IMG/VR virus record: IMGVR_UViG_3300009001_000054
Span: 1 to 30,757 of that record
Origin: a virus
Strand: one strand, 5' to 3'
DNA: 30,757 nucleotides
How positions within the stretch are numbered: position 1 is the first letter of the stretch; each line of letters begins with the position of its first letter. A model generated the notes under the pieces. It searched no databases. It was given only the letters and a program-made list of their open reading frames with translations, and was not told where the DNA came from. Positions 2 to 25,007 of the stretch are shown here, piece by piece. Both the position numbers and the translations under genes were made by a program.

Positions 2-502
2 GTTCTTGCAGGTGTTCCAGGTAATCATGGTGAGATGTCCAGGACCAGTAAAGGTCAAGTTGCAACAAGCAGATTAGATAACTCTGATACCATGCACTTA
101 CAGATATGTGAAGAGATTATGTCTGCTAATAAAGAACGTTACAAGAATGTAACAGTAGAAGTGCCAGATGGTTTTCACCAGGTAATGACTATCAAATCAA
201 TACCGTGCGGCTGGACACATGGACACATGACTGGTGGCAGCGGTGGTAATCCTGAGAATAAAATAGAGAACTGGTGGAAGGGTCAGATGTATGGATTCTT
301 ACCGATGAGTGACGTACAGATTCTTATTACAGGTCACTATCATCACTTCCGTGCAAAACAACAAGGTGATAGGACTTGGTTTCAATCTCCTAGCTTAGAT
401 AAAAGCATAGACTTTACAGCTAGGTCTGGTCTTTGGTCCCATCCAGGTGTACTTACATTTACTGTAAATAAAAAAGGATGGGATAACCTAAAGATTCTTT
501 AA
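2..502 (+). CDS. Metallophosphoesterase, 5'-truncated by the window edge
   Basis: The reading frame is open from base 2, and the codons before the first ATG (35) already encode a Gly-Asn-His-Gly-Glu motif (bases 20-34). This is the GNH[D/E] metal-binding block of calcineurin-like phosphoesterases, so the gene starts outside the window and 35 is not its start. Downstream come a Thr-His-Gly-His block (about bases 215-226) and Ile-Thr-Gly-His-Tyr-His-His (about 326-346), matching the last two metal-ligand motifs of the family. Enzymes of this fold hydrolyse phosphomono- or diesters with two metal ions; phage members are often DNA-repair (SbcD/Mre11-like) nucleases or phosphatases. The substrate cannot be told here because the N-terminal half is missing. 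The stop codon overlaps the stop of the converging leftward gene. Confidence 0.8.
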   Translation, partial: VLAGVPGNHGEMSRTSKGQVATSRLDNSDTMHLQICEEIMSANKERYKNVTVEVPDGFHQVMTIKSIPCGWTHGHMTGGSGGNPENKIENWWKGQMYGFLPMSDVQILITGHYHHFRAKQQGDRTWFQSPSLDKSIDFTARSGLWSHPGVLTFTVNKKGWDNLKIL

Positions 503-714
503 CCGTTTACTGGCACCTTAAAGTTAGGGTCACCGTATGCACGTGTTAAAGTCAAGAGATAAGACAACACTTCTTGTGTCTGTGTGTCATCTATAGTTTC
601 AGAGTGGTCAACAAATAACATGAAGTTACGCAGCAGTGCGTGTACCCTGGGATTGTTTATCTCCCACATCTTAGATTCTTTAATAGCATCTTCTAACATC
701 ATGTCCATTACCAT
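499..714 (-). CDS. Hypothetical protein, 71 aa, last gene of the leftward module
   Basis: No family is recognised. The product is small, acidic in its first half and probably helical. The ATG at 714 overlaps the stop of the preceding gene as TAATG, and a GAGGAGG ribosome-binding sequence lies just upstream. In-frame ATGs at 708 and 702 are alternative starts. The stop codon shares bases with the stop of the converging phosphoesterase, so nothing separates the two convergent genes. It should be expressed with the six genes upstream of it in the unit that begins at 2739. Confidence 0.65.
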   Translation of the reverse strand: MVMDMMLEDAIKESKMWEINNPRVHALLRNFMLFVDHSETIDDTQTQEVLSYLLTLTRAYGDPNFKVPVNG

Positions 715-896
715 TACTCCTCCTCTGCTGGTGTATCTAGCTTCATCTCTACTGCAGCCATGATACCCAGCAGCTGCACTCTTCCATCCTTAGCAGTTAT
801 AGTTGCTTCTCTAAACAACCTAACTCCGTTGTCTGTACCTCTTGTTAATAGTTCTTTTATTAATACAAGTGTATCTATATTTTTTAAATCACTCAT
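714..896 (-). CDS. Hypothetical protein, 60 aa
   Basis: No family is recognised. The small protein has a leucine-rich first third, an Arg-rich middle and an acidic tail ending in three Glu. Its ATG overlaps the previous stop as TAATG and its own stop overlaps the next ATG the same way, so translation is probably coupled along this chain. Support comes from tight packing and an intact frame rather than from similarity. Confidence 0.6.
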   Translation of the reverse strand: MSDLKNIDTLVLIKELLTRGTDNGVRLFREATITAKDGRVQLLGIMAAVEMKLDTPAEEE

Positions 897-1168
897 TAGA
901 ATGGTGCCTCCTCATCGTCTGTTAATCTATACATAGCTACATTACCTCTATGATTGTGGTTCCAATACATGTGGTCTCTACATTGTGCAGCTTCAATACC
1001 ATAACCCATCTTGCGTAGGTCTGCTACGCGTTGTGCGTATGTAGGTAAAAACATTTGTTGGAATGTAGTTCCACATACCCAGTCCCAATTAGCTTCTTTT
1101 AGCTTCTCCAGGACTCGGTGTGAATCGGTCCCTTCATTAGGTATCTTCTTCACTCTCATGTACTGCAT
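896..1168 (-). CDS. Winged-helix/HTH-like DNA-binding protein, 90 aa
   Basis: Residues about 42-85 (Leu-Pro-Thr-Tyr-Ala-Gln-Arg-Val-Ala-Asp-Leu-Arg-Lys-Met-Gly-Tyr...) follow the pattern of small phage winged-helix domains. In these, an R-[IV]-x-[DE]-L-R-[KR]-x-G-[YW]-x-I-E recognition helix and wing is followed by a strand ending in a Tyr-Arg-Leu-like motif, here Met-Tyr-Arg-Leu near residue 80. Such proteins bind DNA as regulators or accessory replication factors. The gene lies 1 base after the annealing-protein gene, suggesting a role in DNA metabolism or early regulation. The ATG at 1168 is preceded by a GGACGG sequence; a second ATG three codons in is possible. The fold call rests on motif memory alone. 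Confidence 0.6.
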   Translation of the reverse strand: MQYMRVKKIPNEGTDSHRVLEKLKEANWDWVCGTTFQQMFLPTYAQRVADLRKMGYGIEAAQCRDHMYWNHNHRGNVAMYRLTDDEEAPF

Positions 1169-1169
1169 G

Positions 1170-2063
1170 TTATGAACCGTCCTTTAAAGACCAAGTATTT
1201 GTATCTACCCAATCAAAGATATTACCTTTGTTTATCTTACCGCTTGACAATGCTGCTTTAGCTTTTGCTGCAAGCTCATCGTCTCCGTTGTCAATAGCTT
1301 TGTTAACACAGTTATTAAATGTGTTGAGTTGCTTCTCACTAGGTGCGTCCTTCTCCCAGTCTCCGCTTGGTATGTCTGCCATGTCATCTCCTTCTTTTAT
1401 TTCTACGTCACCACTAAATGTTTCAATGATGTCATTAACTACATCTGAATTACCTTGACGTTCTTCAAATGTTTTCTTTTGCTTTTCTATGTATTTAGAA
1501 GCTACATCTATAAATGTCTTTTGGTTATCATCGCTGTAGTCTGCCATCTCTTTTGGCATACCTTGCTTGACAGCCATTCTATCTACAGTGTACTTCCATA
1601 CGTTAGCTGCAAACTTCTTATCACCTGCACACATGGTCAAGATTATCTCCTTCATTTCATTAGAAAGGGATGTCTTGCTCTCTTGTGCTATAGGTTTTTT
1701 TTTAGGTGCAGCTGGTTTACTGTCAGATACTTTGCTCATCTCTTCTCTGCTTGGTCTAGGTTTATTGCTGCCCTGGTATTTCCAGTTAGCTAAAGCTCTA
1801 CCTATTGCAGAAGTCTCGCAGTTCTCCATCCATGCGTCAGCATTAGCAAAGCCACCTTGACCTTTAGTCTCTTGTGCTGTACCAGTAGTCACTGGTCTTG
1901 CATCTGTTAGGTCCTTGTATAGTTCTGCTTTAATAGTTACGCATGTACCGTCATCAGTTATGTGTACTATATCTGTCTCTATTCTGCCGTCTGGATTATC
2001 CTTCCAGAACAGTTTTAATCTATCTTCTACTGTCTCGTAGTTCTCTAAATTAAACTTTGCCAT
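1170..2063 (-). CDS. ERF/RecT-like single-strand annealing or ssDNA-binding protein
   Basis: The N-terminal 100 residues contain Tyr-Glu-Thr-Val-Glu-Asp-Arg-Leu and later Gly-Gly-Phe-Ala-Asn-Ala, then Glu-Asn-Cys-Glu-Thr-Ser-Ala-Ile-Gly-Arg-Ala-Leu-Ala-Asn. The second block is a signature I associate with ERF-like recombination/ssDNA-binding proteins of actinobacterial phages. Such proteins coat single-stranded DNA and promote annealing in phage recombination and replication. The remaining two thirds is charged and low-complexity (Pro/Lys-rich around residues 115-130, acidic patches around 210-240), with a Ser-Glu-Lys-Gln-Leu-x(3)-Asn segment near the C-terminus that may be a partner-binding domain. 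The start at 2063 has AAGGAAGG 5 bases upstream, inside the end of the preceding HTH gene. The exact family (ERF versus RecT versus ssDNA-binding) is uncertain. Confidence 0.65.
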   Translation of the reverse strand: MAKFNLENYETVEDRLKLFWKDNPDGRIETDIVHITDDGTCVTIKAELYKDLTDARPVTTGTAQETKGQGGFANADAWMENCETSAIGRALANWKYQGSNKPRPSREEMSKVSDSKPAAPKKKPIAQESKTSLSNEMKEIILTMCAGDKKFAANVWKYTVDRMAVKQGMPKEMADYSDDNQKTFIDVASKYIEKQKKTFEERQGNSDVVNDIIETFSGDVEIKEGDDMADIPSGDWEKDAPSEKQLNTFNNCVNKAIDNGDDELAAKAKAALSSGKINKGNIFDWVDTNTWSLKDGS

Positions 2064-2274
2064 CGTTACCTTCCTTGTTTACTATTGTGTACACATGCTT
2101 GCGTGATATACCAGCAGCTGCAGCGATGTCATCTACTGTCATCTTTGTTGTACTCCTGGCATCAAACAAGTGTGTAATCATACTGTTACGTGATTGAATC
2201 TTGCTCTTGATTAATCTGCTAGTAGATTTTAATTCTTCAAATAATAAATCTTCATAGCTTGATAATTTATTCAT
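2050..2274 (-). CDS. Small helix-turn-helix protein, 74 aa
   Basis: The C-terminal third reads Met-Thr-Val-Asp-Asp-Ile-Ala-Ala-Ala-Ala-Gly-Ile-Ser-Arg-Lys-His-Val-Tyr, a classic helix-turn-helix with the A-x(3)-G-[IV]-S turn and a basic recognition helix. The N-terminal part is a charged helix that could dimerise. It probably acts as a small DNA-binding regulator or accessory factor. Its ATG overlaps the preceding stop as ATGA, and its 3' end overlaps the annealing-protein gene by 14 bases and carries that gene's ribosome-binding site. Confidence 0.7.
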   Translation of the reverse strand: MNKLSSYEDLLFEELKSTSRLIKSKIQSRNSMITHLFDARSTTKMTVDDIAAAAGISRKHVYTIVNKEGNDGKV

Positions 2275-2390
2275 CTTCTCCTTCCTCTTTTGAGTTCTTT
2301 AATTAAGTCCTGGACTGTATCATTGACAGTCAGTTCTAATTCTAGTTCTGCAAGTAGTCTGTTAAGACTCTCTTCATCCCACTTAGACAT
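2271..2390 (-). CDS. Mini-protein, 39 aa, acidic helix with Arg-rich tail
   Basis: This short frame starts at ATG 2390, one base after the stop of the 115-aa gene, and ends in a TGA that overlaps the next ATG as ATGA. The product is a leucine-rich acidic helix (Leu-Leu-Ala-Glu-Leu-Glu-Leu-Glu-Leu) followed by a basic end of Arg-Gly-Arg-Arg-Arg. No family is recognised. Without it there would be an unexplained 117-base gap in an otherwise gap-free chain, and the exact coupling at both ends supports it as a gene. No strong Shine-Dalgarno is seen, so translation is probably coupled. Confidence 0.6.
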   Translation of the reverse strand: MSKWDEESLNRLLAELELELTVNDTVQDLIKELKRGRRR

Positions 2391-2391
2391 G

Positions 2392-2739
2392 TCATGCTGT
2401 GCTGGGTGCTAACATACCTATTTGTTTATAAGCAGAATCAGCTAACGAATAAAATATTGATTTTTGAAACTCATATTGTTCATAGATTTGTAATCCTAAC
2501 TCTTCCATATATGAATCAAGTTTCTCTTTTATTTCTTCATTAGACTTGCCTTGTTTCTTCATTCTTTGTGCTTCAATAATCGCATTCTCTCCCCAGTTCA
2601 TTATCTTTTGAGTAGCAATAGGATTAATTGGTCTGCCGTTTTCTGCACGCATAGTATTCTCTTTGCTGTAAACGATACCTTCCTCCACTAACATACGTAA
2701 TGTCTGTGGTCTTAATGCTTTTATTAAATTATAGCTCAT
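2392..2739 (-). CDS. Hypothetical protein, 115 aa, first gene of the 2739 unit
   Basis: No family is recognised. The product is mixed-charge and mostly helical, with an internal Lys/Glu-rich stretch (residues about 60-80) and an aromatic C-terminal third. A strong GGGAGG ribosome-binding site sits 8 bases before ATG 2739, and the TGTAACC/GTCTAA promoter lies 23-52 bases upstream. That makes it the promoter-proximal gene of a unit that continues through the mini-protein, HTH, annealing protein, winged-helix protein and two small genes to base 499. Confidence 0.7.
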   Translation of the reverse strand: MSYNLIKALRPQTLRMLVEEGIVYSKENTMRAENGRPINPIATQKIMNWGENAIIEAQRMKKQGKSNEEIKEKLDSYMEELGLQIYEQYEFQKSIFYSLADSAYKQIGMLAPSTA

Positions 2740-2761
2740 AGCTTTACCTCCCTTTGTCTTG

Positions 2762-2791
2762 TTAGACTCTTCTAGTTATTAATTGGTTACA
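2762..2791 (-). promoter_or_regulatory. ECF-like early promoter for the 2739 unit
   Basis: TGTAACC (2791-2785) and GTCTAA (2767-2762) are separated by 17 bases. The site is one of seven with this arrangement in the window. The last bases of the TTG-start zinc-peptide gene, including its TAA, lie inside the upstream box. The predicted transcript would begin near 2755, leaving a short leader with GGGAGG before ATG 2739. Confidence 0.65.
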
Positions 2792-2918
2792 AATAAACTG
2801 GTGTATTTACAACAGTTACTTGTGGCTGCATGTACATTCTGCATAATTCATTTATGCAGACATGCCTGGCATTCACAACGTGAGTGTGATTGCCGCACAT
2901 CATACAAATGCTTGACAA
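2787..2918 (-). CDS. Cys-rich mini-protein, 43 aa, TTG start
   Basis: A perfect AAGGAGGT (2930-2923) lies 4 bases before TTG 2918, while the first in-frame ATG (2903) is too far away at about 19 bases, so the TTG is the likely start. The product has Cys-Met-Met-Cys-Gly-Asn-His near the N-terminus and Cys-Ile-Asn-Glu-Leu-Cys about 16 residues later. This C-x2-C ... C-x4-C layout suggests a single zinc knuckle. It ends within the next promoter. The function is unknown; a nucleic-acid or protein-binding adaptor is plausible for such phage zinc peptides. Confidence 0.6.
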   Translation of the reverse strand: MSSICMMCGNHTHVVNARHVCINELCRMYMQPQVTVVNTPVYL

Positions 2919-2958
2919 CGTAACCTCCTTTTACGTTACTTAGTATATATTATACACG

Positions 2959-3096
2959 TTACTTCATGTTACGCATGCGTTTTTTTGCATAACGATAACC
3001 CTTCCATGTTTGGAAGTTAAAGTATGCAGCAAGTAGTGTGAATCCTACAATGAACGCAGTCATTGTAAGTAGGATAAATCCTTGCCAACTACACAT
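2959..3096 (-). CDS. Single-pass membrane mini-protein, 45 aa
   Basis: ATG 3096 has an ideal GGAAGGAGGT site 5 bases upstream, inside the end of the Cys-rich gene. Residues about 4-27 form a hydrophobic segment (Trp-Gln-Gly-Phe-Ile-Leu-Leu ... Leu-Leu-Ala-Ala-Tyr-Phe). A strongly basic tail (Lys-Lys-Arg-Met-Arg-Asn-Met-Lys) follows, implying an N-out/C-in single-span inner-membrane protein by the positive-inside rule. It might be holin-like or an early host-membrane modifier, but no family is recognised. Confidence 0.65.
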   Translation of the reverse strand: MCSWQGFILLTMTAFIVGFTLLAAYFNFQTWKGYRYAKKRMRNMK

Positions 3097-3099
3097 GAG

Positions 3100-3369
3100 T
3101 CACCTCCTTCCTTTTATTTCTAGTAATACTTTGTCCCTGTCGGGGTTAAACATTGGAGAAGAACAACCACCACCGAATGCTGGACTGAAGTCTGCCATGT
3201 TGTCTGGCATGCCAGCTTGTATCTCGTCATACTTCTCACAAAAATAATTACCTGGCTTGTCACCACCAAGATATATGCAAGCTAAGTTATCTTCGCTTGT
3301 TGGTTTACCGAACGGACATGGTCTCTGCTTGCAGCAGAAACCAGACCGAACACAAGAAGCAAACTCTAT
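3100..3369 (-). CDS. Cys-rich protein, 89 aa, lacking a canonical start codon
   Basis: This frame opens after a TAA at 3387-3385 and runs to TGA at 3102-3100. Its N-terminal half is dense in Cys: Cys-Val-Arg-Ser-Gly-Phe-Cys-Cys-Lys, then Cys-Pro-Phe-Gly, Ala-Cys-Ile-Tyr and Phe-Cys-Glu-Lys-Tyr, followed by Phe-Gly-Gly-Gly-Cys. It resembles a Cys-rich hypothetical family I recall from other phages and may bind Zn or Fe-S. No ATG, GTG or TTG lies before the first Cys; the only candidates are ATA 3369 or ATT 3384. GAGGAG sits 5 bases before the ATA, whose bases overlap the stop of the previous gene as ATAG. An AUA start, a frameshift from the upstream gene, or a base error could explain this. 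The frame itself is convincing; the start is not resolved. Confidence 0.65.
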   Translation of the reverse strand: MEFASCVRSGFCCKQRPCPFGKPTSEDNLACIYLGGDKPGNYFCEKYDEIQAGMPDNMADFSPAFGGGCSSPMFNPDRDKVLLEIKGRR

Positions 3370-3671
3370 TGTTGCTCCTCTAATTTAAGCAAGTTGCTGC
3401 ATGCCTCGTACACTTGCAAGTACCCATTGTTTTTGAATACTTTAAGTGCATCACCTAGCATGACATACTCTGTGAAACCCATAAACTCATGGGCTTTGGA
3501 CGCATCCTCAACACAATTTGCACCTAGAATCTCATCGCTGTAACCGATGATGTCTAAGAACAAAGCAAAAGGATTTTTACCTGGCTCAAAGTTAAAGCTC
3601 CACTCGTGTAGCTCTGTTAACTGCTCCTGTACCTCTTGTATTTGAGTTAGCATTGATTTGTTTTTAGGCAT
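3366..3671 (-). CDS. Hypothetical protein, 101 aa, first gene of the 3671 unit
   Basis: No family is recognised. The N-terminus is a predicted helix rich in Gln/Glu/Leu (possible short coiled coil, residues 7-25), followed by a hydrophobic-aromatic core with one Cys near residue 52 and another near residue 91. AAAGGAGGG lies just upstream of ATG 3671, and a TGTAACT/GTCTAA promoter sits 29-57 bases upstream. The end overlaps the start region of the Cys-rich gene by 4 bases. Confidence 0.65.
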   Translation of the reverse strand: MPKNKSMLTQIQEVQEQLTELHEWSFNFEPGKNPFALFLDIIGYSDEILGANCVEDASKAHEFMGFTEYVMLGDALKVFKNNGYLQVYEACSNLLKLEEQQ

Positions 3672-3695
3672 TCTGCCCTCCTTTTATTGCGTACA

Positions 3696-3887
3696 TTATT
3701 TAGACTCCACATCGTGAAAAAAGTTACACTTACAATCCAAAAAACTTTTATAGATTGTGCGCAAGTGTTGCATCTCTCTGTACTTGTGTATGTCTAAACC
3801 TTCATTCATTATCCTGGTTCGCAGCTGGTCAACGTGACACTGGACCATCTCGTGTAATGATTCGTGTCCGTATTTATTTTTCTTCAT
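3696..3887 (-). CDS. Hypothetical protein, 63 aa
   Basis: No family is recognised. The small basic protein is rich in His and has Cys at residue 17 and a Cys-Lys-Cys pair near residue 53. Its start overlaps the end of the 67-aa gene by 14 bases. Its last ten codons contain the next promoter, and the terminal Val-Glu-Ser-Lys is shared with the unrelated 173-aa protein for that reason. Confidence 0.6.
   Translation of the reverse strand: MKKNKYGHESLHEMVQCHVDQLRTRIMNEGLDIHKYREMQHLRTIYKSFLDCKCNFFHDVESK
3700..3728 (-). promoter_or_regulatory. ECF-like early promoter for the 3671 unit
   Basis: TGTAACT (3728-3722) and GTCTAA (3705-3700) are 16 bases apart. The whole element lies in the last codons of the 63-aa gene and accounts for that protein ending in Val-Glu-Ser-Lys. 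It is followed by AAAGGAGGG and ATG 3671. Confidence 0.65.
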
Positions 3888-4077
3888 TTAGTACATCTTT
3901 TAAAAATTTAGCTGCATCACGTGAACCCATCTCTTTAAACAACAATGCAATTAATGTATCTATTGCTTTAGTTATTTTTAAATCCACAATAGTTGTATTA
4001 AGTCCCATGTCTTTTGCTTTAGCATGTAGTGTTTTTAAAGACTTAATTCTTTTTTGATAGTCCATTACTAATACCAT
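3874..4077 (-). CDS. Hypothetical protein, 67 aa
   Basis: No family is recognised. It is a predicted helical protein with basic N-terminal and acidic C-terminal parts (ending Asn-Glu-Glu-Lys). AGGAAGGAAG lies a few bases before ATG 4077; an in-frame ATG at 4065 is the alternative. It lies 12 bases after the 107-aa gene and is probably transcribed from the same promoter upstream of 4413. Confidence 0.6.
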   Translation of the reverse strand: MVLVMDYQKRIKSLKTLHAKAKDMGLNTTIVDLKITKAIDTLIALLFKEMGSRDAAKFLKDVLNEEK

Positions 4078-4089
4078 TCTTCTTCCTTC

Positions 4090-4413
4090 CTATGCTGCCA
4101 CCGCAACATCTTCTACTCTCTCAACTTCCAAGTAAAAATCTATCTCTGCATCATTAAAGGTTCTGTACTCCCATCCTTTTAGGTAATACATACCATGAAT
4201 ATGAGAACCGTAATATTTTTTTTCTTTAGATACAAACTTAGGTTGGTCCTTGTAAATATCTATCTCATCCCATAGTTCTTGCAGCTCCTGCTTTGTACCG
4301 TACTTGACCCACTGTGTACCTTCCTTAACAAAGCCCAGGTCTTTTAAGAACGCAGCTTTAGTTGCACCAAGCACTGGCTTGACTGCATACAACTTCGCTA
4401 TCTCCTGCATCAT
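4090..4413 (-). CDS. Hypothetical protein, 107 aa, first gene of the 4413 unit
   Basis: No family is recognised. The product has a Lys-rich N-terminal helix, a Gln-Trp-Val-Lys-Tyr-Gly-Thr-Lys-Gln-Glu-Leu-Gln-Glu-Leu segment (residues about 38-52) and an aromatic, acidic C-terminal half ending in Val-Ala-Val-Ala-Ala. Two adjacent ATGs (4413 and 4410) follow AAGGTGG. The TGTAACT/GTCTAA promoter lies immediately upstream, so this gene leads a unit with the 67- and 63-aa genes. Confidence 0.65.
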   Translation of the reverse strand: MMQEIAKLYAVKPVLGATKAAFLKDLGFVKEGTQWVKYGTKQELQELWDEIDIYKDQPKFVSKEKKYYGSHIHGMYYLKGWEYRTFNDAEIDFYLEVERVEDVAVAA

Positions 4414-4434
4414 TCACCACCTTTTTTTATCACG

Positions 4435-4821
4435 TTACTTAGACACCTGCTCTTCTAATTTAGTTACATCTTTTTTTTCACGATACTTACCATACTCAAA
4501 CTGTGGTTCGGGATTTGCTTTGACTGTTGCCTTCATATCTTCTAGTACTTTTATGAACGCATCAATTGTGTGAAGCACATCTGACGTACCGTAAGCTATC
4601 GCACCAGACTGGCTGGTATAAAATGTCCAGAATGTTTTTCCAAATAGTTTTTCTAACTCTTCACGTGGATGCCAGTCATAATCCGCATCAATTCTAAATG
4701 GAACTGACACATCTTTAGCACATGACTGATTCCAAATTTTATATTCGTAATCAACACCACGCTCTAGCACTTCATCATTATCATTACTGGACCATCTGTA
4801 ATTTACTTTTTTGTTATACAT
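4435..4821 (-). CDS. Hypothetical protein, 128 aa
   Basis: No family is recognised. The product is rich in aromatic and charged residues, with a compact-looking middle (Phe-Gly-Lys-Thr-Phe-Trp-Thr-Phe-Tyr, about residues 60-68) and a Lys/Glu-rich C-terminal tail. ATG 4821 overlaps the stop of the 47-aa gene as TAATG, and AAGGAAGG lies a few bases upstream. It closes the 5159 unit, and its last codons carry the next promoter. Confidence 0.65.
   Translation of the reverse strand: MYNKKVNYRWSSNDNDEVLERGVDYEYKIWNQSCAKDVSVPFRIDADYDWHPREELEKLFGKTFWTFYTSQSGAIAYGTSDVLHTIDAFIKVLEDMKATVKANPEPQFEYGKYREKKDVTKLEEQVSK
4439..4468 (-). promoter_or_regulatory. ECF-like early promoter for the 4413 unit
   Basis: TGTAACT (4468-4462) and GTCTAA (4444-4439) are 17 bases apart. 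The element is embedded in the last codons of the 128-aa gene, which therefore ends Val-Ser-Lys. The bases after the -10 (GTAACGTGATA) are the same as those after the 5187-5216 site. Confidence 0.65.
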
Positions 4822-4964
4822 TACTCACCTTCCTTTACAATCTCTGGCAATACTGGTTCTGATATTGCCACTAACTTATCTAATTGGTTCTTTGCACCTG
4901 TAAAGTTATCTTCTTCAAGTGATTCTATTATTTGTTTTTTTAATTTGTTTATTACTTGGTTCAT
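4821..4964 (-). CDS. Mini-protein, 47 aa, helical
   Basis: The frame starts at ATG 4964, four bases after the zinc-ribbon gene, with an AGGAGGG site upstream that lies within the end of that gene. The TAA stop overlaps the next ATG as TAATG. The product is a Lys/Ile-rich amphipathic helix followed by an acidic end. No family is recognised. It fills what would otherwise be a 146-base gap with exact coupling at its end, which supports it as a real gene. Confidence 0.6.
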   Translation of the reverse strand: MNQVINKLKKQIIESLEEDNFTGAKNQLDKLVAISEPVLPEIVKEGE

Positions 4965-4967
4965 TAC

Positions 4968-5159
4968 TTACCCTCCTAACGGTTCATTACATTTTTCACA
5001 AGTGTAATCACCTAAGAAAAACGCATTACCCGCATCTTCTAATATGTACCCTGGTATTTTTGTAAAACAGTTACCGCAATTAAGCACACTGTCTTTTGTT
5101 AGTTCTAAATCTTCATCTGTCAAGCCAGTAATGGCTTTATAAAAATCATAATCTAACAT
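4968..5159 (-). CDS. Zinc-ribbon mini-protein, 63 aa
   Basis: Two Cys-x2-Cys knuckles are present (Cys-Gly-Asn-Cys at residues 28-31 and Cys-Glu-Lys-Cys at 54-57), 22 residues apart, which is the layout of a four-Cys zinc ribbon. The preceding residues are acidic and helical (Leu-Thr-Asp-Glu-Asp-Leu-Glu-Leu). I chose ATG 5159 because GGAAGG lies 5 bases before it. A GTG six bases upstream would overlap the end of that binding site. It is the first gene after the 5187-5216 promoter. It is likely a nucleic-acid or protein-binding adaptor; the exact role is unknown. Confidence 0.65.
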   Translation of the reverse strand: MLDYDFYKAITGLTDEDLELTKDSVLNCGNCFTKIPGYILEDAGNAFFLGDYTCEKCNEPLGG

Positions 5160-5182
5160 TCTCACCTTCCTTTTCTATCACG

Positions 5183-5704
5183 TTACTTAGACTCAACATC
5201 TTCTGAATTGGTTACATCTTCTGCCATCTTTTTTAATTTCTCCCAGTGCGGTTCAAACGTAGGAATAAAATAGTTCTGCATGTAATCTGCATGGCTGTCA
5301 TACCCTGGGAATCTTGCAGCAAATTCTTTTGGTTCTAAAGACCACATCTCTTTTGCAAGATGGAATGGACTGTGATACTCATGCTTGAATGTTATCTCGT
5401 TGAGTTCCTTCATGGTATATTCTTTGTAAACGTAGTCACCTTCTGTTAGTACATAAGTTTTCTTGACATACTCCTGGAATGGCATCCCGTCAATGATATC
5501 GTCAACAGCACCATCAATATACTTTGCGCTGATTGAGTCATCATAAACAGTATTTGTTTTTTTGTTTAACAAGAACGCATGACCACCGTAGTGCGCAGCA
5601 CCTTTAAATATATCTCTTAGTGCATGGACCACAACCCACTCATCACCTTTTGAGAAATCATTGATTGCATTCCATGCAGCTGGATAGCAGTTACCAGCAC
5701 CCAT
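5183..5704 (-). CDS. Possible papain-like/transglutaminase-fold Cys protein, 173 aa
   Basis: The N-terminus reads Gly-Asn-Cys-Tyr-Pro-Ala-Ala-Trp-Asn-Ala, putting a Cys (residue 6) at the head of a helix. Tyr-Gly-Gly-His-Ala-Phe-Leu-Leu follows (His 42), then Val-Tyr-Asp-Asp-Ser (Asp 55). A Cys-helix / Gly-His-Ala-strand / Asp-strand order is the active-site layout of papain-like and transglutaminase-like folds. I recall small phage proteins with similar G-N-C-[FY] and H-A-[FW] motifs. The rest (residues 60-173) is acidic and aromatic and not assignable. If active, it could be a thiol peptidase or amidase acting on a host target early in infection. The start at 5704 overlaps the preceding stop as TAATG. 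Confidence 0.5.
   Translation of the reverse strand: MGAGNCYPAAWNAINDFSKGDEWVVVHALRDIFKGAAHYGGHAFLLNKKTNTVYDDSISAKYIDGAVDDIIDGMPFQEYVKKTYVLTEGDYVYKEYTMKELNEITFKHEYHSPFHLAKEMWSLEPKEFAARFPGYDSHADYMQNYFIPTFEPHWEKLKKMAEDVTNSEDVESK
5187..5216 (-). promoter_or_regulatory. ECF-like early promoter for the 5159 unit
   Basis: TGTAACC (5216-5210) and GTCTAA (5192-5187) are 17 bases apart, inside the last codons of the 173-aa gene (which ends Val-Glu-Ser-Lys). The predicted transcript begins just before the GGAAGG binding site of the zinc-ribbon gene. Confidence 0.65.
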
Positions 5705-5859
5705 TATCTTTTACCTTTTGTTGGTTGAGTTTTTTCCATTCTGTAAATCACACCACCCCATTTATCTGCAGTGTTGTAAGCATCTTCATAGAATGTTGGA
5801 GCTGTGACTCTGATTTCTCCAGCATCATTCCAGAAAATTACTCTATAAATTTCTTTCAT
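5704..5859 (-). CDS. Hypothetical protein, 51 aa
   Basis: No family is recognised. It is a small beta-rich protein (Ile-Tyr-Arg-Val-Ile-Phe-Trp ... Ile-Arg-Val-Thr-Ala-Pro) with a basic Thr-Lys-Gly-Lys-Arg end. I place the start at ATG 5859, because that ATG overlaps the stop of the 38-aa gene as ATGA and has AGGTGG upstream. The longer version beginning at 5886 would lie mostly inside the 38-aa gene. Its stop overlaps the next ATG as TAATG. Confidence 0.6.
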   Translation of the reverse strand: MKEIYRVIFWNDAGEIRVTAPTFYEDAYNTADKWGGVIYRMEKTQPTKGKR

Positions 5860-5972
5860 GCTGCCACCTTGCTGTGTTGGTAACACACTTCTTCACCAAC
5901 CATCTCTTTAGTATCAAAGTAGTATGTTGTTACGCATCCGCATGACATATACTCAGTTGCTTTTTTTCTCAT
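5856..5972 (-). CDS. Cys-rich mini-protein, 38 aa, first gene of the 5972 unit
   Basis: The short frame starts at ATG 5972 with AAGGAAGG upstream and ends in a TGA overlapping the next ATG. It encodes Cys-Gly-Cys-Val-Thr at residues 11-15 and Cys-Tyr-Gln-His at 30-33, a C-x-C ... C-x2-H pattern consistent with a minimal zinc site. The TGTAACC/GTCTAA promoter lies directly upstream. The function is unknown. Confidence 0.6.
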   Translation of the reverse strand: MRKKATEYMSCGCVTTYYFDTKEMVGEEVCYQHSKVAA

Positions 5973-5995
5973 GTTTTTTCCTTCCTTCATATTTA

Positions 5996-6025
5996 TTAGA
6001 CAATTACTTTTACGATTAGGTTACA
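5996..6025 (-). promoter_or_regulatory. ECF-like early promoter for the 5972 unit
   Basis: TGTAACC (6025-6019) and GTCTAA (6001-5996) are 17 bases apart. The TAA of the -10 box is also the stop codon of the P-loop kinase gene, so the promoter is wholly inside that gene's 3' end. Confidence 0.65.
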
Positions 6026-6595
6026 AAGTTTTTGCAAGAATCTTGACTTGATTGAGTTGTAACCTTGTACTTCTTGATATTCAATATAGCCAGTGGATGC
6101 CAGCGCTTGCAATTTTTCCGCGGTGTACACTGTACCCCCGAAGTCTTTAGCGCATACTGATAAGAACATTTTGCGCTTGCTGGTTTTGTTGCGTCTATGA
6201 ACATTGTAAAGACAGCTTGCTAAATCATTTTTGACATAGACAAAGCGCACTTGCAAGCCAGCTGATTTTGCGGCTGTAATCCTGGATTCTACTTTATCCC
6301 AGTTCTTGCCGCGGTTATCAAAGATAACTGAACTACAATTATAACGGTCAAGAAAATCATCTTGATTATAAAAGTAATTGAACAGTAATGACTGACTAAG
6401 TTCTGAAGCCGCTGGATGCAAAGCCGCGTTAGTTTCAGAACATACTGGTTCTTGATTATTTAAAGCCAGCTTAATAGCATCCGCGTCAATAATGAACGCA
6501 TCTTGCTGACCAGCTAATTTATTGGCATGTCTTGACTTACCAGAACCAGAAGCCCCGATAAGGAATGTAATTGTGTTTTGTGTTTTTGTTTTCAT
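5996..6595 (-). CDS. P-loop kinase-like ATPase, 199 aa
   Basis: Residues 13-21 (Ile-Gly-Ala-Ser-Gly-Ser-Gly-Lys-Ser) are a canonical Walker A loop following a hydrophobic strand. Ile-Ile-Asp-Ala-Asp-Ala-Ile (about 35-41) fits the kinase substrate-binding strand, and a strand with Val-Ile-Phe-Asp-Asn-Arg-Gly (about 89-95) fits Walker B. The size and layout match the AAA_33/zeta-toxin-like/polynucleotide-kinase superfamily, whose members phosphorylate nucleic-acid ends or small molecules. The substrate is not determined. It is the first gene of the leftward module. No ribosome-binding site is visible; the promoter -10 ends only 5 bases before ATG 6595, so the message is probably leaderless. Confidence 0.7.
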   Translation of the reverse strand: MKTKTQNTITFLIGASGSGKSRHANKLAGQQDAFIIDADAIKLALNNQEPVCSETNAALHPAASELSQSLLFNYFYNQDDFLDRYNCSSVIFDNRGKNWDKVESRITAAKSAGLQVRFVYVKNDLASCLYNVHRRNKTSKRKMFLSVCAKDFGGTVYTAEKLQALASTGYIEYQEVQGYNSIKSRFLQKLCNLIVKVIV

Positions 6596-6600
6596 GCTAC

Positions 6601-6630
6601 TTAGAGCTTCAAGAGTTACAAAAGGTTACA
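6601..6630 (-). promoter_or_regulatory. ECF-like early promoter for the P-loop kinase gene
   Basis: TGTAACC (6630-6624) and CTCTAA (6606-6601) are 17 bases apart. Transcription starting about 6 bases downstream would begin at or next to ATG 6595, giving a leaderless message. The surrounding 11-mer ATGTAACCTTT is identical to that at 24208-24198. Confidence 0.6.
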
Positions 6631-6662
6631 TATTATTTTAAATTATTTTTCTATGGGATATC

Positions 6663-6680
6663 TATCAATCCTTATCAATC
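6663..6680. repeat. Tandem TATCAATC operator-like direct repeat
   Basis: TATCAATC occurs at 6663-6670 and 6673-6680, a period of exactly 10 bases (one helical turn). The pair lies about 35-55 bases upstream of the -35 box of the 6601-6630 promoter, which suits an activator or repressor binding two subunits on one face of the DNA. Confidence 0.5.
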
Positions 6681-6742
6681 TAACCCATGCCATTATCATT
6701 TTAAAAAAAATATATGGTATTTTCTGACATACATTCTCATAA

Positions 6743-6770
6743 GCTGTAATTGTTGCATATATGCTGTAAA
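6743..6770. repeat. GCTGTAA direct repeats 20 bases apart with a central palindrome
   Basis: GCTGTAAT (6743-6750) and GCTGTAAA (6763-6770) start exactly 20 bases apart. A perfect 10-base palindrome, GCATATATGC (6755-6764), lies between and partly overlaps the second copy. The two-turn spacing suggests a protein-binding site in the control region. Confidence 0.45.
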
Positions 6771-7078
6771 TGCTTGATTTTATTAACCTAGTAACGCAAC
6801 ATAATAGTAGTTATAGGACAATGAACGGGAATGTCAATTTGGCTGGGGTGTATTCGTATTCGTAACACTAGGGTTGTTTAATACCAATTTATTACTATAT
6901 ATAGTATGTCTAATAAAAAGGTACTATATATTGTGTTTACTTATAACTTTTGTAGATAATGTACATACACTAGGTGCAGCGTCACACATTACCTGGACTT
7001 CATTAATTTCTTTTAAAGTGTTATTACACTCTTTACATTTCATATATAATTTTTATTTTATTAAAACTCTTTGGGGAT

Positions 7079-7097
7079 ATAGCGGGCTATTTTTTTT
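7079..7097 (+). terminator. Weak rightward terminator-like hairpin
   Basis: A short stem (ATAGC / GCTAT with a tiny GG loop, or a 4-pair stem with loop CGGG) is followed directly by a run of eight T. The stem is short, so this is only a candidate. Confidence 0.25.
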
Positions 7098-7141
7098 ATA
7101 TATTCAAATATGAACTAGGATGTTTCACTAGACCTTGGGTA

Positions 7142-7185
7142 TCTCACTTGTCTTTCTAGTTGGTCTTACTGGCTGTAAGGTGAGA
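7142..7185 (+). other. Structured non-coding patch
   Basis: TCTCAC (7142-7147) can pair with GTGAGA (7180-7185). An inner hairpin CTTAC / GTAAG (7165-7169 / 7175-7179) with loop TGGCT abuts the outer stem, and a T-rich stretch follows. The patch is visibly richer in G and C than its surroundings and has no frame. It could be part of an untranslated RNA or a leader; no known RNA family was recognised. Confidence 0.3.
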
Positions 7186-7362
7186 CTTTTGTACTCCCGA
7201 TGTCCGCTTTACCTGTATCTTGCTACTTGCTCCTGGTTGTTTGTAGTTCGCTAACTTTATCATAAAGGAGAATCTAAAACAATTTAGAGAAAAAATTTTT
7301 TTTATGCTCGCTTTGTTCGCTAGTTTCTATATAATAAATTTATCTTGGGATGGACCCAGGAT

Positions 7363-7390
7363 TTAGATATGAATAAATATTTATATCTAA
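7363..7390. repeat. 28-base AT-rich imperfect palindrome
   Basis: TTAGATAT (7363-7370) is matched by ATATCTAA (7383-7390), and the interior continues to pair (AATA / TATT), leaving one mismatch pair. It could be an operator or an RNA hairpin upstream of the 7495 terminator. Confidence 0.45.
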
Positions 7391-7494
7391 TAGAAAAGAA
7401 AAGATGCTTTTCATCGGTTTTAGGACAGTGGATGATTTGTGTAATTTCATTTTCTTTCATACAAATAGTATTGGACATACTATACGTGAACGAG

Positions 7495-7528
7495 AACCTA
7501 CTTCTTGCCCGAAGTAGGTTTTTGTTTT
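7495..7528 (+). terminator. Strong Rho-independent terminator, rightward
   Basis: A perfect 10-base stem, AACCTACTTC (7495-7504) with GAAGTAGGTT (7511-7520) and loop TTGCCC, is followed by TTTGTTTT. The opposite strand has no T-run after the stem, so it terminates rightward transcription only. No rightward gene precedes it, so it ends either leak-through or a non-coding RNA from the control region. It overlaps the 3' end of the leftward zinc-finger gene. Confidence 0.75.
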
Positions 7529-7713
7529 GTCGGGTCTATATTTCTACCTTTGATTCTTGGATAACTTCTAGGTTTATGTTTATGACAATATTTATATTTG
7601 TTATATTGAGATAAGATGGTAGTACAAGCAGAATGCACGCAGGTTCGGTTTTTCTGATACTGCGTATTCTTTTTGAAGTTCGGATACTTGTTACCCGATA
7701 TGTATTCTGCCAT
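7498..7713 (-). CDS. Small zinc-finger protein, 71 aa, probably leaderless
   Basis: Residues 25-46 contain Cys-x4-Cys-x12-Cys-x2-His (Cys 25, 30, 43; His 46) with Tyr-Asn-Lys-Tyr-Lys-Tyr-Cys between. This is the layout of small phage zinc fingers in which the last pair is C-x2-H. The rest is strongly basic, consistent with nucleic-acid binding. No ribosome-binding site precedes ATG 7713; instead a TATACT (7725-7720) ends 6 bases before it, which would give a leaderless message. It is divergent from the late genes and overlaps their predicted promoter, so it may regulate the late module, but that is inference. Confidence 0.6.
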   Translation of the reverse strand: MAEYISGNKYPNFKKNTQYQKNRTCVHSACTTILSQYNKYKYCHKHKPRSYPRIKGRNIDPTKQKPTSGKK

Positions 7714-22781: not shown

Positions 22782-23608
22782 TGGCAACATACTTAGAAGA
22801 AGCACAAGCATTATATCCAAACTTATCTGCAACGTTACTTAACTTGTTTGCAGCTGAATGGGCTAAGTCTGGTAATCCAGTTACTGCTATACAAGAAGTT
22901 AGACAGACAGATGAATACAGAACAGAGTTTCCTGGTAACTATAATCCAGCAACTGGTCAAGTTAGATACAATGAGACTACATACAAAGCATTAGAACAAT
23001 CTTATATTGGTACACTCCAGGAGTATGGCATACCAGAACAAACATCAAGAGTATTACTTGCTGATAGATTTGTAGGTTTACTTGAAGGTGAAGTATCTGC
23101 AAGAGAGTTTCAACAAAGAGTAAGCGCAGCATACGAAGGTATTGTAGATAACATACAAGGAGTACAAAACTTTTTCTCTACTAATTACAATGTTGACTTA
23201 ACACCAGAAGCTATATTCATGGGAGCATTGGACCCGTCAATAGGTGAAGAGATTATCTCTGGTAGAATTACTGCAGCACAAATTGGTGGTGAAGCTGCAA
23301 GAGCTGGCTTTGCTATAACAAGAACAGAAGCTGAAGGATTAAGACAAGCTGGTTTAACGCAGCAACAAGCTAGACAACTTTATAGTGCAGCACAAAAAGA
23401 TTTACCTAGACTTAGAGAGATACAACAAAGAGTAGAACCAGACGCAGAAGAATTATCATTAGAACAATTTACACAAGCTGTTGTATTCCAGGACGCAGAC
23501 GTGTTAGATGATATAAGAAGATTAGAAGCAGAAGAAACTTCTATGTTTACACCACAAGTTGGTGCAGCTAGAAGAGGTGCTAGAGTTACTGGACTTCAAG
23601 AACAATAG
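22781..23608 (+). CDS. Virion-module protein, 275 aa
   Basis: No family is recognised. It is helical, rich in Glu/Gln/Ala, with an Ile-Gly-Gly-Glu-Ala-Ala-Arg-Ala-Gly-Phe-Ala stretch around residue 170 and a Gln/Arg-rich end. It overlaps the previous stop and is the last gene before the terminator at 23608, so it closes the terminase-to-core transcription unit. It is likely a further internal virion or core-assembly protein. Confidence 0.55.
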   Translation: MATYLEEAQALYPNLSATLLNLFAAEWAKSGNPVTAIQEVRQTDEYRTEFPGNYNPATGQVRYNETTYKALEQSYIGTLQEYGIPEQTSRVLLADRFVGLLEGEVSAREFQQRVSAAYEGIVDNIQGVQNFFSTNYNVDLTPEAIFMGALDPSIGEEIISGRITAAQIGGEAARAGFAITRTEAEGLRQAGLTQQQARQLYSAAQKDLPRLREIQQRVEPDAEELSLEQFTQAVVFQDADVLDDIRRLEAEETSMFTPQVGAARRGARVTGLQEQ

Positions 23609-23658
23609 CAAAAACCCCAACTGAAAAACACAAAAACAGTTAGGGCTTTGCTTTATTT
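23608..23658. terminator. Bidirectional terminator between convergent genes
   Basis: An imperfect stem pairs AACTG with CAGTT (one C-A mismatch, then CCC/GGG, then GCAAA/TTTGC with a bulge) around an A-rich loop. T-rich tracts lie on both sides: TTTATTT rightward, and TTTTTG when read leftward. It sits exactly between the stop of the 275-aa gene and the stop of the antisense gene. Confidence 0.7.
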
Positions 23659-24025
23659 ATTCTTCTTCAGTAGCAGCAAATATTTTTTGATTATTTAAAT
23701 CGTGATAAACTGCTTGTTCTCTTACTGTTCCTTTCCAAGTATCTTTATTTCGTTCCATAAGTGTCCATCTACTTGGTTGTAATCTATCTAAACCGCTATC
23801 ATTTAAAATACTAAATAACTGTATAGTAGATAATTTAAGTTGAGTACCATCTACAAAATCAATTAGATAACCACTACCAACTTCTCCCGAAGATAGTTTT
23901 TCGTGATTAATTTCTTTCCACCAAATAGTATCTAATCTATCTCCGTAGATAAAGCAATCACCACTTTGTGCATTCTGTAGTAATTGATTTCTTTCTAGTT
24001 CCTCTCTTGGTATTTCTTTACCCAT
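23657..24025 (-). CDS. Antisense-island protein, 122 aa
   Basis: No family is recognised. The product is soluble and mixed-charge, with an Asp-Thr-Ile-Trp-Trp-Lys-Glu-Ile core near residues 32-39, a Gly-Ser-Gly-Tyr-Leu-Ile-Asp-Phe segment and an acidic end. The start is translationally linked to the preceding 41-aa gene (TAATG) with GGGAGA upstream. It lies leftward inside the rightward late module and is driven by an early-type promoter, suggesting early expression. Confidence 0.65.
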   Translation of the reverse strand: MGKEIPREELERNQLLQNAQSGDCFIYGDRLDTIWWKEINHEKLSSGEVGSGYLIDFVDGTQLKLSTIQLFSILNDSGLDRLQPSRWTLMERNKDTWKGTVREQAVYHDLNNQKIFAATEEE

Positions 24026-24150
24026 TACTTATCTCCCTTCGCATTATCTATTAGTTGTTTCCAATACTCTGGTGATTCTGTATCTATAAACCAGTCACCA
24101 TTTTTAACAAAAGCATCGTATTCTTCTTCTGTTTCAAAAGCACCGTACAT
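24025..24150 (-). CDS. Antisense-island mini-protein, 41 aa
   Basis: ATG 24150 has GGAAGG upstream and the frame ends in TAATG with the next gene. The product is very acidic and aromatic (Glu-Glu-Glu-Tyr-Asp-Ala-Phe, Asp-Trp-Phe-Ile-Asp, Glu-Tyr-Trp-Lys). Acidic mini-proteins of this kind can act as inhibitors or DNA mimics, but no family is recognised and this is only a thought. The TGTAACC/GTCTAA promoter lies 29-57 bases upstream. Confidence 0.6.
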   Translation of the reverse strand: MYGAFETEEEYDAFVKNGDWFIDTESPEYWKQLIDNAKGDK

Positions 24151-24178
24151 GTGTTTTCCTTCCTTTCGCTTACATTAA

Positions 24179-24207
24179 TTAGACTACATAGAAAAAAAAA
24201 GGTTACA
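24179..24207 (-). promoter_or_regulatory. ECF-like early promoter of the antisense island
   Basis: TGTAACC (24207-24201) and GTCTAA (24184-24179) are 16 bases apart, the same arrangement as the six sites in the leftward early module more than 17 kb away. Here there is no upstream gene to constrain the sequence, which argues that the motif itself is under selection. Confidence 0.65.
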
Positions 24208-24219
24208 TGTTTTTTTTTG

Positions 24220-24228
24220 TGATATAAT
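24220..24228 (+). promoter_or_regulatory. Extended -10 promoter candidate
   Basis: TG-A-TATAAT (24220-24228) is a perfect extended -10 element. The -35 region is poor, which extended -10 promoters tolerate. A start near 24235 would give a transcript of about 85 bases ending at the 24286 hairpin. Confidence 0.4.
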
Positions 24229-24234
24229 TTATTT

Positions 24235-24320
24235 AAGGATTCTTCTCTAGCAATAGATTAGTATAACCTTCCTTTCGTGTACGTAAAAATAGTGGGTGTA
24301 AAAACCCACTATTTTGTTTA
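24235..24320 (+). ncRNA. Candidate small RNA of about 85 bases
   Basis: The interval between the extended -10 element and the strong hairpin plus T-run contains no reading frame with a ribosome-binding site on the + strand. The layout (promoter, about 50 bases, terminator) is that of a small RNA gene. It is divergent from the antisense island and lies ahead of the capsid unit. The end points are inferred, not seen. Confidence 0.35.
24286..24320. terminator. Strong bidirectional terminator upstream of the capsid unit
   Basis: AAAATAGTGGGT (24286-24297) and ACCCACTATTTT (24304-24315) form a perfect 12-base stem with a 6-base loop. Rightward it is followed by TTTTGTTTA; leftward the stem runs into a T-rich strand as well. 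It shields the capsid unit from upstream transcription. Confidence 0.8.
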
Positions 24321-24327
24321 TGTAGTA

Positions 24328-24333
24328 TATAAT
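24328..24333 (+). promoter_or_regulatory. TATAAT -10 of the capsid unit
   Basis: A perfect TATAAT lies 13 bases after the terminator stem, with no good -35. It would start a message with a leader of about 205 bases before ATG 24549. A weaker alternative at 24401-24428 (TGTAAG-N16-GTCTAG) resembles the early promoter motif but differs at two positions. Confidence 0.4.
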
Positions 24334-24548
24334 TAGAGTATCGGATTGCGGCTGTCTCCGAGTATAAATGGATGCTGCACCTTCCAGCTTATAGCTGACG
24401 TGTAAGCTGCGTATTACAATTCGTCTAGTATCTCAACAGTCTGAAGTGGCTGGCAATTCTCATTGTTGTTTAATTATTATTTGTCGCGTATCGCATCATT
24501 AACCCAAGGATGATGTAGTTAATACCAACACTTGGAGTAGGAGATAAA
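24334..24548 (+). other. Structured 5' leader of the scaffold/capsid message
   Basis: These 215 bases have no frame. They contain several stems: TCGGA/TCCGA (24341-24345 / 24357-24361), CAGCTTA/TAAGCTG (24385-24391 / 24403-24409), then near the start codon CATCAT/ATGATG (24494-24499 / 24510-24515), ATTAAC/GTTAAT (24498-24503 / 24518-24523) and CCAAG/CTTGG (24504-24508 / 24531-24535). The first two of the last group share bases and cannot form together. The stretch is less AT-rich than nearby spacers. No known riboswitch class was recognised. Confidence 0.45.
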
Positions 24549-25007
24549 ATGGAAAACGAAGTAGAAAATACAGTAGAAGAAGTACAAGAAGATAATAATG
24601 CTATCAAGCAAATGCGAGACCGCATTAAAGAACTTGAATCAGTAGAGAAGGAATATAAATCTGTACAGATGGCTAATGCTATCAAGGATGCAGGTTTTGA
24701 CCCAGAGACTGGTCCAGGTAAAGCATTAAAAGACTTGTATAAAGGTGAGTTACAAGCAGATGCAATAAAAGAATTTGCATCTCAATATGGTTGGGGAAAT
24801 GCTCCAGCTGAACCCACACAAGATGAATTGCAAAGACAAAGAGTTGTTTCTAGTCAAGACAATTTAGATACTGTGATTGAAGCATCAGTACCAGTAGAGC
24901 CAGTTTCGCTAGATGACCAGATTGCACAAGCGCAAACAGATGGTGATTGGCAAACTGCCGCTAATCTCAAAGCAGATAAATTAAAAGCATTAACCCGAAA
25001 AGAATAG
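24549..25007 (+). CDS. Scaffolding-type protein, 152 aa
   Basis: The product is acidic, highly charged and helical. It begins with Glu-rich coiled-coil-like sequence (residues 1-45), contains Gly-Phe-Asp-Pro-Glu-Thr-Gly-Pro-Gly-Lys-Ala-Leu, and ends in a basic helix (Lys-Ala-Asp-Lys-Leu-Lys-Ala-Leu-Thr-Arg-Lys-Glu). A Glu/Lys-rich helical protein with a basic C-terminus, coded immediately before the major capsid protein, is typical of phage scaffolds that guide prohead assembly and then leave. GGAGTAGGAGA provides a strong ribosome-binding site. The call relies on composition and position. Confidence 0.75.
   Translation: MENEVENTVEEVQEDNNAIKQMRDRIKELESVEKEYKSVQMANAIKDAGFDPETGPGKALKDLYKGELQADAIKEFASQYGWGNAPAEPTQDELQRQRVVSSQDNLDTVIEASVPVEPVSLDDQIAQAQTDGDWQTAANLKADKLKALTRKE

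Follow-up and report, generated by a model that had tools for sequence, protein, structure and literature searches.

A putative anti-Shine-Dalgarno small RNA beside a swappable early-promoter cargo site in uncultured marine phages

Introduction

As described in PMC12197685, each of the phage small RNAs c4, sar, OOP and aQ has a single phage gene as its target, and the other phage small RNAs covered there act mostly on host genes. The c4 RNA of P1/P7 blocks translation of a phage mRNA, ant, by pairing around its ribosome-binding site, and has a role in lysogeny/immunity through this one target; OOP and aQ of lambda and sar of P22 are short RNAs that control genes of phage development, each a single gene (cII, Q and ant) and mostly in antisense (PMC12197685). 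VpdS, encoded by phage VP882, and PreS, encoded by lambda, are trans-acting; the former regulates VP882 replication in Vibrio and the latter host dnaN in E. coli (PMC12197685). Among cellular RNAs, the C-rich small RNA B11 binds G-rich tracts in the 5' UTRs of mycobacterial mRNAs (PMC10470900), and binding by 6C was reported, in work cited in PMC10470900, to occur without RNA chaperones.

The locus described here belongs to a group of uncultured marine phages and lies in a 30,757-base virus record (the window, that is, the whole stretch of DNA that was analysed). We consider it probable that it encodes an anti-Shine-Dalgarno small RNA acting as a repressor of early mRNAs of the same phage, next to a cargo site under an early promoter. 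Like c4, this RNA is predicted to pair around the ribosome-binding site of phage mRNA and block translation, but its conserved region fits such sites in many early genes, whereas c4 has one target (PMC12197685). Like OOP, aQ and sar, it would be a short RNA controlling genes of phage development, but it would differ from them in having many targets, none of which it overlaps. Like VpdS and PreS, it would be a phage-encoded trans-acting RNA, although their descriptions in PMC12197685 give no anti-Shine-Dalgarno matching to a class of early-gene sites. As in actinobacterial B11/6C, a cytosine-rich sequence is predicted to meet G-rich 5' UTR tracts of several mRNAs; B11 and 6C are cellular and use C-rich loops (PMC10470900), whereas the RNA described here is phage-borne and its CCUUCCUUU stretch lies between a GNRA hairpin and a terminator.

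Searches of the open-access literature turned up no phage RNA described as matching early ribosome-binding sites as a class. The genes beside the RNA recall morons, the autonomous cargo of phage late regions, which consist of extra genes with their own promoter and terminator. Like morons, they are extra genes so equipped, at a site that stands empty in relatives; unlike morons, they adjoin a conserved RNA gene and carry the phage's own early-type promoter, and no sign of prophage expression was seen.

Results

Small leftward genes fill the window from ~500 to 6600, and genes of terminase, capsid and tail type run rightward from 8235. This rightward series is interrupted at 23657-24150 by two leftward ORFs, p122 (23657-24025, minus strand; 122 aa) and p41 (24025-24150, minus strand; 41 aa), both found where a preliminary description of this DNA had placed a two-gene island. 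In most pairs of p41 homologs, dN/dS is ~0.1 (dN 0.01-0.13, dS 0.1-1.5), and 239 of the 359 differences fall at third codon positions, as do 184 of 322 in the core of p122; these values indicate that p41 and p122 are real coding genes, the products of which are conserved proteins under purifying selection. The p41 protein is acidic and hydrophilic (pI 4.06, GRAVY -1.04), and homologs 71-95% identical to it occur only in this slot, with weak and partial matches elsewhere. The cargo proteins tested had no significant match in Pfam, PHROG or PADLOC, which does not count against the anti-host or anti-defence role that the preliminary description considered possible. Structure prediction for p122 from 4 and then 8 sequences gave low mean pLDDT values (45 and then 38), and neither a family nor a fold could be assigned to the cargo genes.

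The major capsid protein, used as query, retrieved 80 related loci, on contigs of metagenomic virus records, and both flanking genes were found in 67 of these; the slot was taken as the interval from the p275 stop to the p152 start. It is empty in 50 of the 67 relatives, with an interval of 204-270 nt, and in 16 it holds a conserved RNA-like element, with or without leftward genes, the gene sets swapping from phage to phage. In the remaining one, the non-carrier L002, a 541-nt interval contains two short rightward ORFs, cysteine-rich and headed by a TTGACA/TATAAT promoter of their own, which indicates that the slot accepts other kinds of insert too. A pattern scan of viral contigs added three further element-bearing phages (carriers), giving 20 with the window; p41 is present in 9 of these, one other gene in 4, and no cargo gene in 7. 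In each of its nine carriers p41, the commonest cargo gene, is followed by others, either of the p122 family or of 69, 66, 71 or ~96 aa, and some p41-bearing slots also have genes of 50, 49 and 45 aa.

Members of the p122 family are found in four other slots and in other contexts. One relative lies in the early region of L141, beside a homolog of the window gene at 35-502, and others lie in L142, L144, L145 and L146, in whose fetched stretches no similarity to the tested window genes could be detected; the p122-family proteins of L144 and L057 are closely alike (~9/10 residues). A relative of the 50-aa gene of L062 adjoins p122 in L146, and L047, a phage without the RNA element, has a 70% match to the cargo protein of L096 in its early region. 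The earlier suggestion of a moron-type cargo slot is thus borne out by the many empty slots, the swapping gene sets, the early-type promoter and the recurrence of some cargo genes in early modules and unrelated phages. Far from being present in all relatives with slow evolution, the pair is anything but universal, and nothing in the analysis points to its late co-transcription.

The cargo unit has a predicted promoter and terminator of its own. A bidirectional intrinsic terminator at about 23607-23652, which separates the p275 unit from the leftward cargo, has a fold of -13.4 kcal/mol (z -2.97), in agreement with the left bound proposed previously, and the same CAAAAACCCCAAC...GGGCTTTGC terminator element also occurs 3' of p275 in the remaining slots with cargo. 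Upstream of p41, a pattern match marks an early-type (ECF-like) promoter, TGTAAC-N17-GTCTAA, at 24207-24179 on the minus strand. This pattern occurs six times in the window, always leftward and never rightward (0.06 expected in shuffles), and the five further occurrences are at leftward early sites, so that the claim that the island is headed by the same promoter as the early module stands. Among the 44 relatives searched, the promoter was found only in element-bearing ones and in L028, the slot of which is off-contig; a search for a phage-borne sigma factor that might recognize it found no Sigma70_r2 domain in 14 large relatives. The strong hairpin described as the right bound does exist, at 24286-24315, but it lies outside the two-gene island and appears to be more than a boundary of p41/p122, terminating a distinct, small-RNA-like element that reads rightward. 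The preliminary description was right about swappable genes but missed this constant divergent element, beside which the cargo is the optional part; the two leftward genes are thus best seen as optional cargo at a site between the p275 terminator and a constant, putative small-RNA gene.

The element is present in every slot with leftward cargo and in seven slots without. Its order is always TATAAT/TATACT, GGA, a GCAA-loop hairpin, ACCTTCCTTTCGTG and a terminator, and it stands between the early promoter, where that is present, and the leader of the capsid operon. In the window, the -10 box (24223-24228, plus strand; TATAAT or TATACT in the copies listed) is divergent from the early promoter, and the putative small RNA of ~83 nt extends from about 24235 to 24318 on the plus strand. 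It comprises a 5' hairpin with a GNRA loop, TCTA-GCAA-TAGA (24246-24257), the invariant region ACCUUCCUUUCGUG (24266-24279), which is identical in all aligned copies and complementary to early ribosome-binding sites, and a near-palindromic intrinsic terminator (24286-24315), all on the plus strand. The stem of the hairpin has compensatory changes (UA/GC/CG, AU/GC and an outer CG/AU pair), and the terminator has one from U-A to G-C. Standard pairs fill 98.9% of the paired cells of the alignment, compared with 37-52% when the partners were slid by 1 to 3 columns, and double changes affect 4 pairs, in 13 cells compared with 3.5 in shuffles. The ACCUUCCUUUCGUG core is invariant while the adjoining p41 has dS values of 0.1-1.5. 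The 5' end of the RNA is predicted to be able to pair with part of the conserved region.

A covariance model of the element (R1) found one copy per carrier contig searched, at the slot, with 91-105 bits; apart from noise, its other matches in carriers were to the mirror image of the element itself on the reverse strand (26-34 bits), and in non-carriers it found no copy (scores of at most 21.5 bits). When viral contigs were scanned for the pattern, the complete element turned up in this phage group and this slot only. Comparison with Rfam gave no family at the gathering threshold, the weak match to STnc50 scoring 24.8 bits against 55. With a conserved promoter box and intrinsic terminator of its own, as a free-standing gene would have, and a conserved, covarying structure, we read the constant element as a putative small RNA gene. 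In bacterial genomes, the pattern of the small RNA matched at five places. Three of these lack the hairpin and lie in unrelated sequence; the other two (L136:3902-3968 and L137:1507-1573, Bacillota/Oscillospiraceae MAG contigs) are nearly identical to each other, have AACCTTCCTTTCGTG in common with a strong GGGTGGG hairpin after it, and score 30.9 bits with R1, but their hairpin differs, and no GCAA hairpin of the small-RNA type was seen.

Read leftward, the conserved region is CGAAAGGAAGG, which resembles early ribosome-binding sites, and it might accordingly serve a very short minus-strand leader ORF, with no plus-strand RNA at all. We rejected this reading as highly improbable: there is no conserved start codon at a usable spacing, a distant TTG opens frames of varying length, no leftward promoter was seen upstream, and the GNRA loop forms on the plus strand, for the transcription of which the -10 box and the terminator are placed.

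Downstream, the capsid operon has a -10 box at 24328-24333 (plus strand), where empty slots such as that of L007 read TTGACA-N-TATAAT, and a structured leader at 24340-24548 (plus strand) in which an H-type pseudoknot adjoins the Shine-Dalgarno site. This leader is conserved in carriers and non-carriers. Stem 1 of the pseudoknot (24494-24499 with 24510-24515) pairs in 55 of the 55 relatives aligned and stem 2 (24504-24508 with 24531-24535) in 54 of the 55, with compensatory changes in both; no Rfam family scored above threshold. An apparent second copy of the leader in L064 was dismissed as a false pattern match.

The complement of the conserved region of the small RNA is CACGAAAGGAAGGT, and 8-mers were listed in the 30 nt upstream of ORFs, covering leftward ORFs in eight carriers and seven non-carriers and rightward ORFs in carriers. 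The commonest 8-mer of the carrier early leaders is AAGGAAGG (33 of 384), which occurs in 1 of 334 non-carrier early leaders and in none of 342 late (rightward) leaders of carriers; by these counts, the conserved region is complementary to its presumed target mRNAs, as a trans-acting small RNA would be. No part of the RNA outside this region has more than a few complements in early leaders. Among 75 whole contigs, none but carriers and L028, the slot of which lies off the contig, has at least two AAGGAAGG-N-ATG sites, and the early sites of non-carriers are of the GGAG type. The mean predicted pairing energy with the RNA is -11.1 kcal/mol for carrier early leaders, -9.5 for non-carrier early leaders and -7.5 for late leaders. 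The ECF-like promoter is missing from three carriers (L057, L022 and L071) that nevertheless retain both the RNA and the AAGGAAGG sites, and the RNA therefore tracks the ribosome-binding site, not the promoter. GGAAGG precedes the ortholog of the shared early gene at 1170-2063 in seven carriers but in none of the non-carriers examined; in sequence, the L057 copy resembles the L031 and L007 copies more than that of the window, yet it has the carrier-type site. The fit is partial: this ortholog lacks GGAAGG in carriers L029, L054, L037 and L040, as do many carrier early genes, and early genes have stronger Shine-Dalgarno sequences in general, with which any anti-Shine-Dalgarno-like sequence will pair.

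The conserved region ACCUUCCUUUCGUG also resembles the general 3' tail of 16S rRNA. The RNA might thus act mainly on host mRNAs with similar Shine-Dalgarno sequences, or on ribosomes as a mimic of the tail, and shut down host translation. We regard this as improbable, given that the region is matched not to the usual GGAGG but to AAGGAAGG, a site enriched in early leaders of this phage lineage itself.

Of all window genes, p41 has the ribosome-binding site (AAGGAAGG; 24158-24165, minus strand) for which the strongest pairing with the RNA is predicted, -23.3 kcal/mol, as would be expected if p41 and the divergent RNA formed a type I toxin-antitoxin pair in which the RNA silences a small toxin. 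We rejected this idea too, with hardly any probability left to it: the acidic, hydrophilic p41 is no small hydrophobic toxin, the RNA does not overlap it in antisense, the pairing weakens to between -8 and -16 kcal/mol in other phages, and 11 of the 20 carriers have the RNA without p41, so that toxin and RNA would not always go together.

Discussion

Carriers and non-carriers are distinguished by the genes to the left of the slot. Compared with the window, carriers have terminase identities of 86-96%, against 62-65% in non-carriers, and p275 identities of 81-97%, against 40-60%; p152, the capsid gene and the genes beyond it have been exchanged freely between the two groups. The stretch at 23608-24549 is a recombination joint, and the slot lies exactly at it. 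Carriers appear to form one backbone lineage from terminase to p275, and the co-occurrence of the RNA and the early sites is consequently mainly that of one lineage and not of many independent events; shared ancestry could be its source. Independent contrasts on the capsid tree were set aside, since capsid genes are exchanged freely and such contrasts are not independent.

This common backbone, the swapping of cargo with its own promoter and terminator and the generally strong Shine-Dalgarno sequences of early genes are what would be expected if the locus were ordinary moron-type cargo, the element a mere promoter-terminator boundary and the match to ribosome-binding sites a by-product of the sequence habits of the lineage. 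We think this unlikely, though the least so of the alternatives. The element is kept in the seven cargo-free slots, including that of L097, where it stands alone between p275 and the capsid leader, without the left terminator, the early promoter or cargo; a boundary needs neither a covarying hairpin nor an invariant core; and of the whole RNA it is the conserved region alone that matches early leaders in number.

We therefore return to repression of early mRNAs by an anti-Shine-Dalgarno small RNA as the preferred reading. It builds on features seen in the sequence, namely the variability of the slot, the identity of the promoter, the covariation and invariance of the RNA and its complementarity to a class-specific early site. 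Early genes would be transcribed from ECF-like promoters, and the small RNA would be made from a plain -10 promoter divergent from that of the cargo and would accumulate. It would then pair in trans with the AAGGAAGG leaders of leftward early genes and block ribosome binding, so that early synthesis would end, and late mRNAs would be spared because they lack a AAGGAAGG site. The cargo of the slot would be expressed with the early class, and in the window p41 would be both cargo and the strongest predicted partner of the RNA. The joint of two genome modules would thus hold two layers, a constant small RNA and optional cargo.

Phages usually rely on promoters, sigma factors or antiterminators to pass from one gene class to the next; the sequences described here suggest a switch at ribosome binding instead. 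More tentatively, we speculate that the variant Shine-Dalgarno sequence AAGGAAGG marks the early genes and that the fitted anti-Shine-Dalgarno RNA of ~83 nt is a class-specific translational switch that spares late mRNAs of the GGAG type, a proposal that we hold with somewhat less than even confidence. If true, it would explain the lineage-wide difference in early ribosome-binding sites, would provide a portable two-part regulator consisting of a variant early site and an RNA fitted to it, and would show where uncultured marine phages park swappable early genes.

The host was sought by a capsid search in bacterial genomes, which gave no match; named phages with related capsid and terminase proteins point to Actinobacteria, by distant similarity only. 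Three further regions of the window may be mentioned. The early genes at 5996-6595 (AAA_33/polynucleotide-kinase or zeta-like) and 5183-5704 (no family assigned) are present in 7 of 7 carriers and in 0 of 7 non-carriers. A small leftward gene at 2050-2274 encodes a helix-turn-helix protein that matches TetR_N and phage late-activator-like proteins weakly and may regulate transcription in the phage. Finally, the ~1.1 kb at 6596-7700, between the early and late modules, contains little convincing coding sequence and may hold an origin or further RNA genes.
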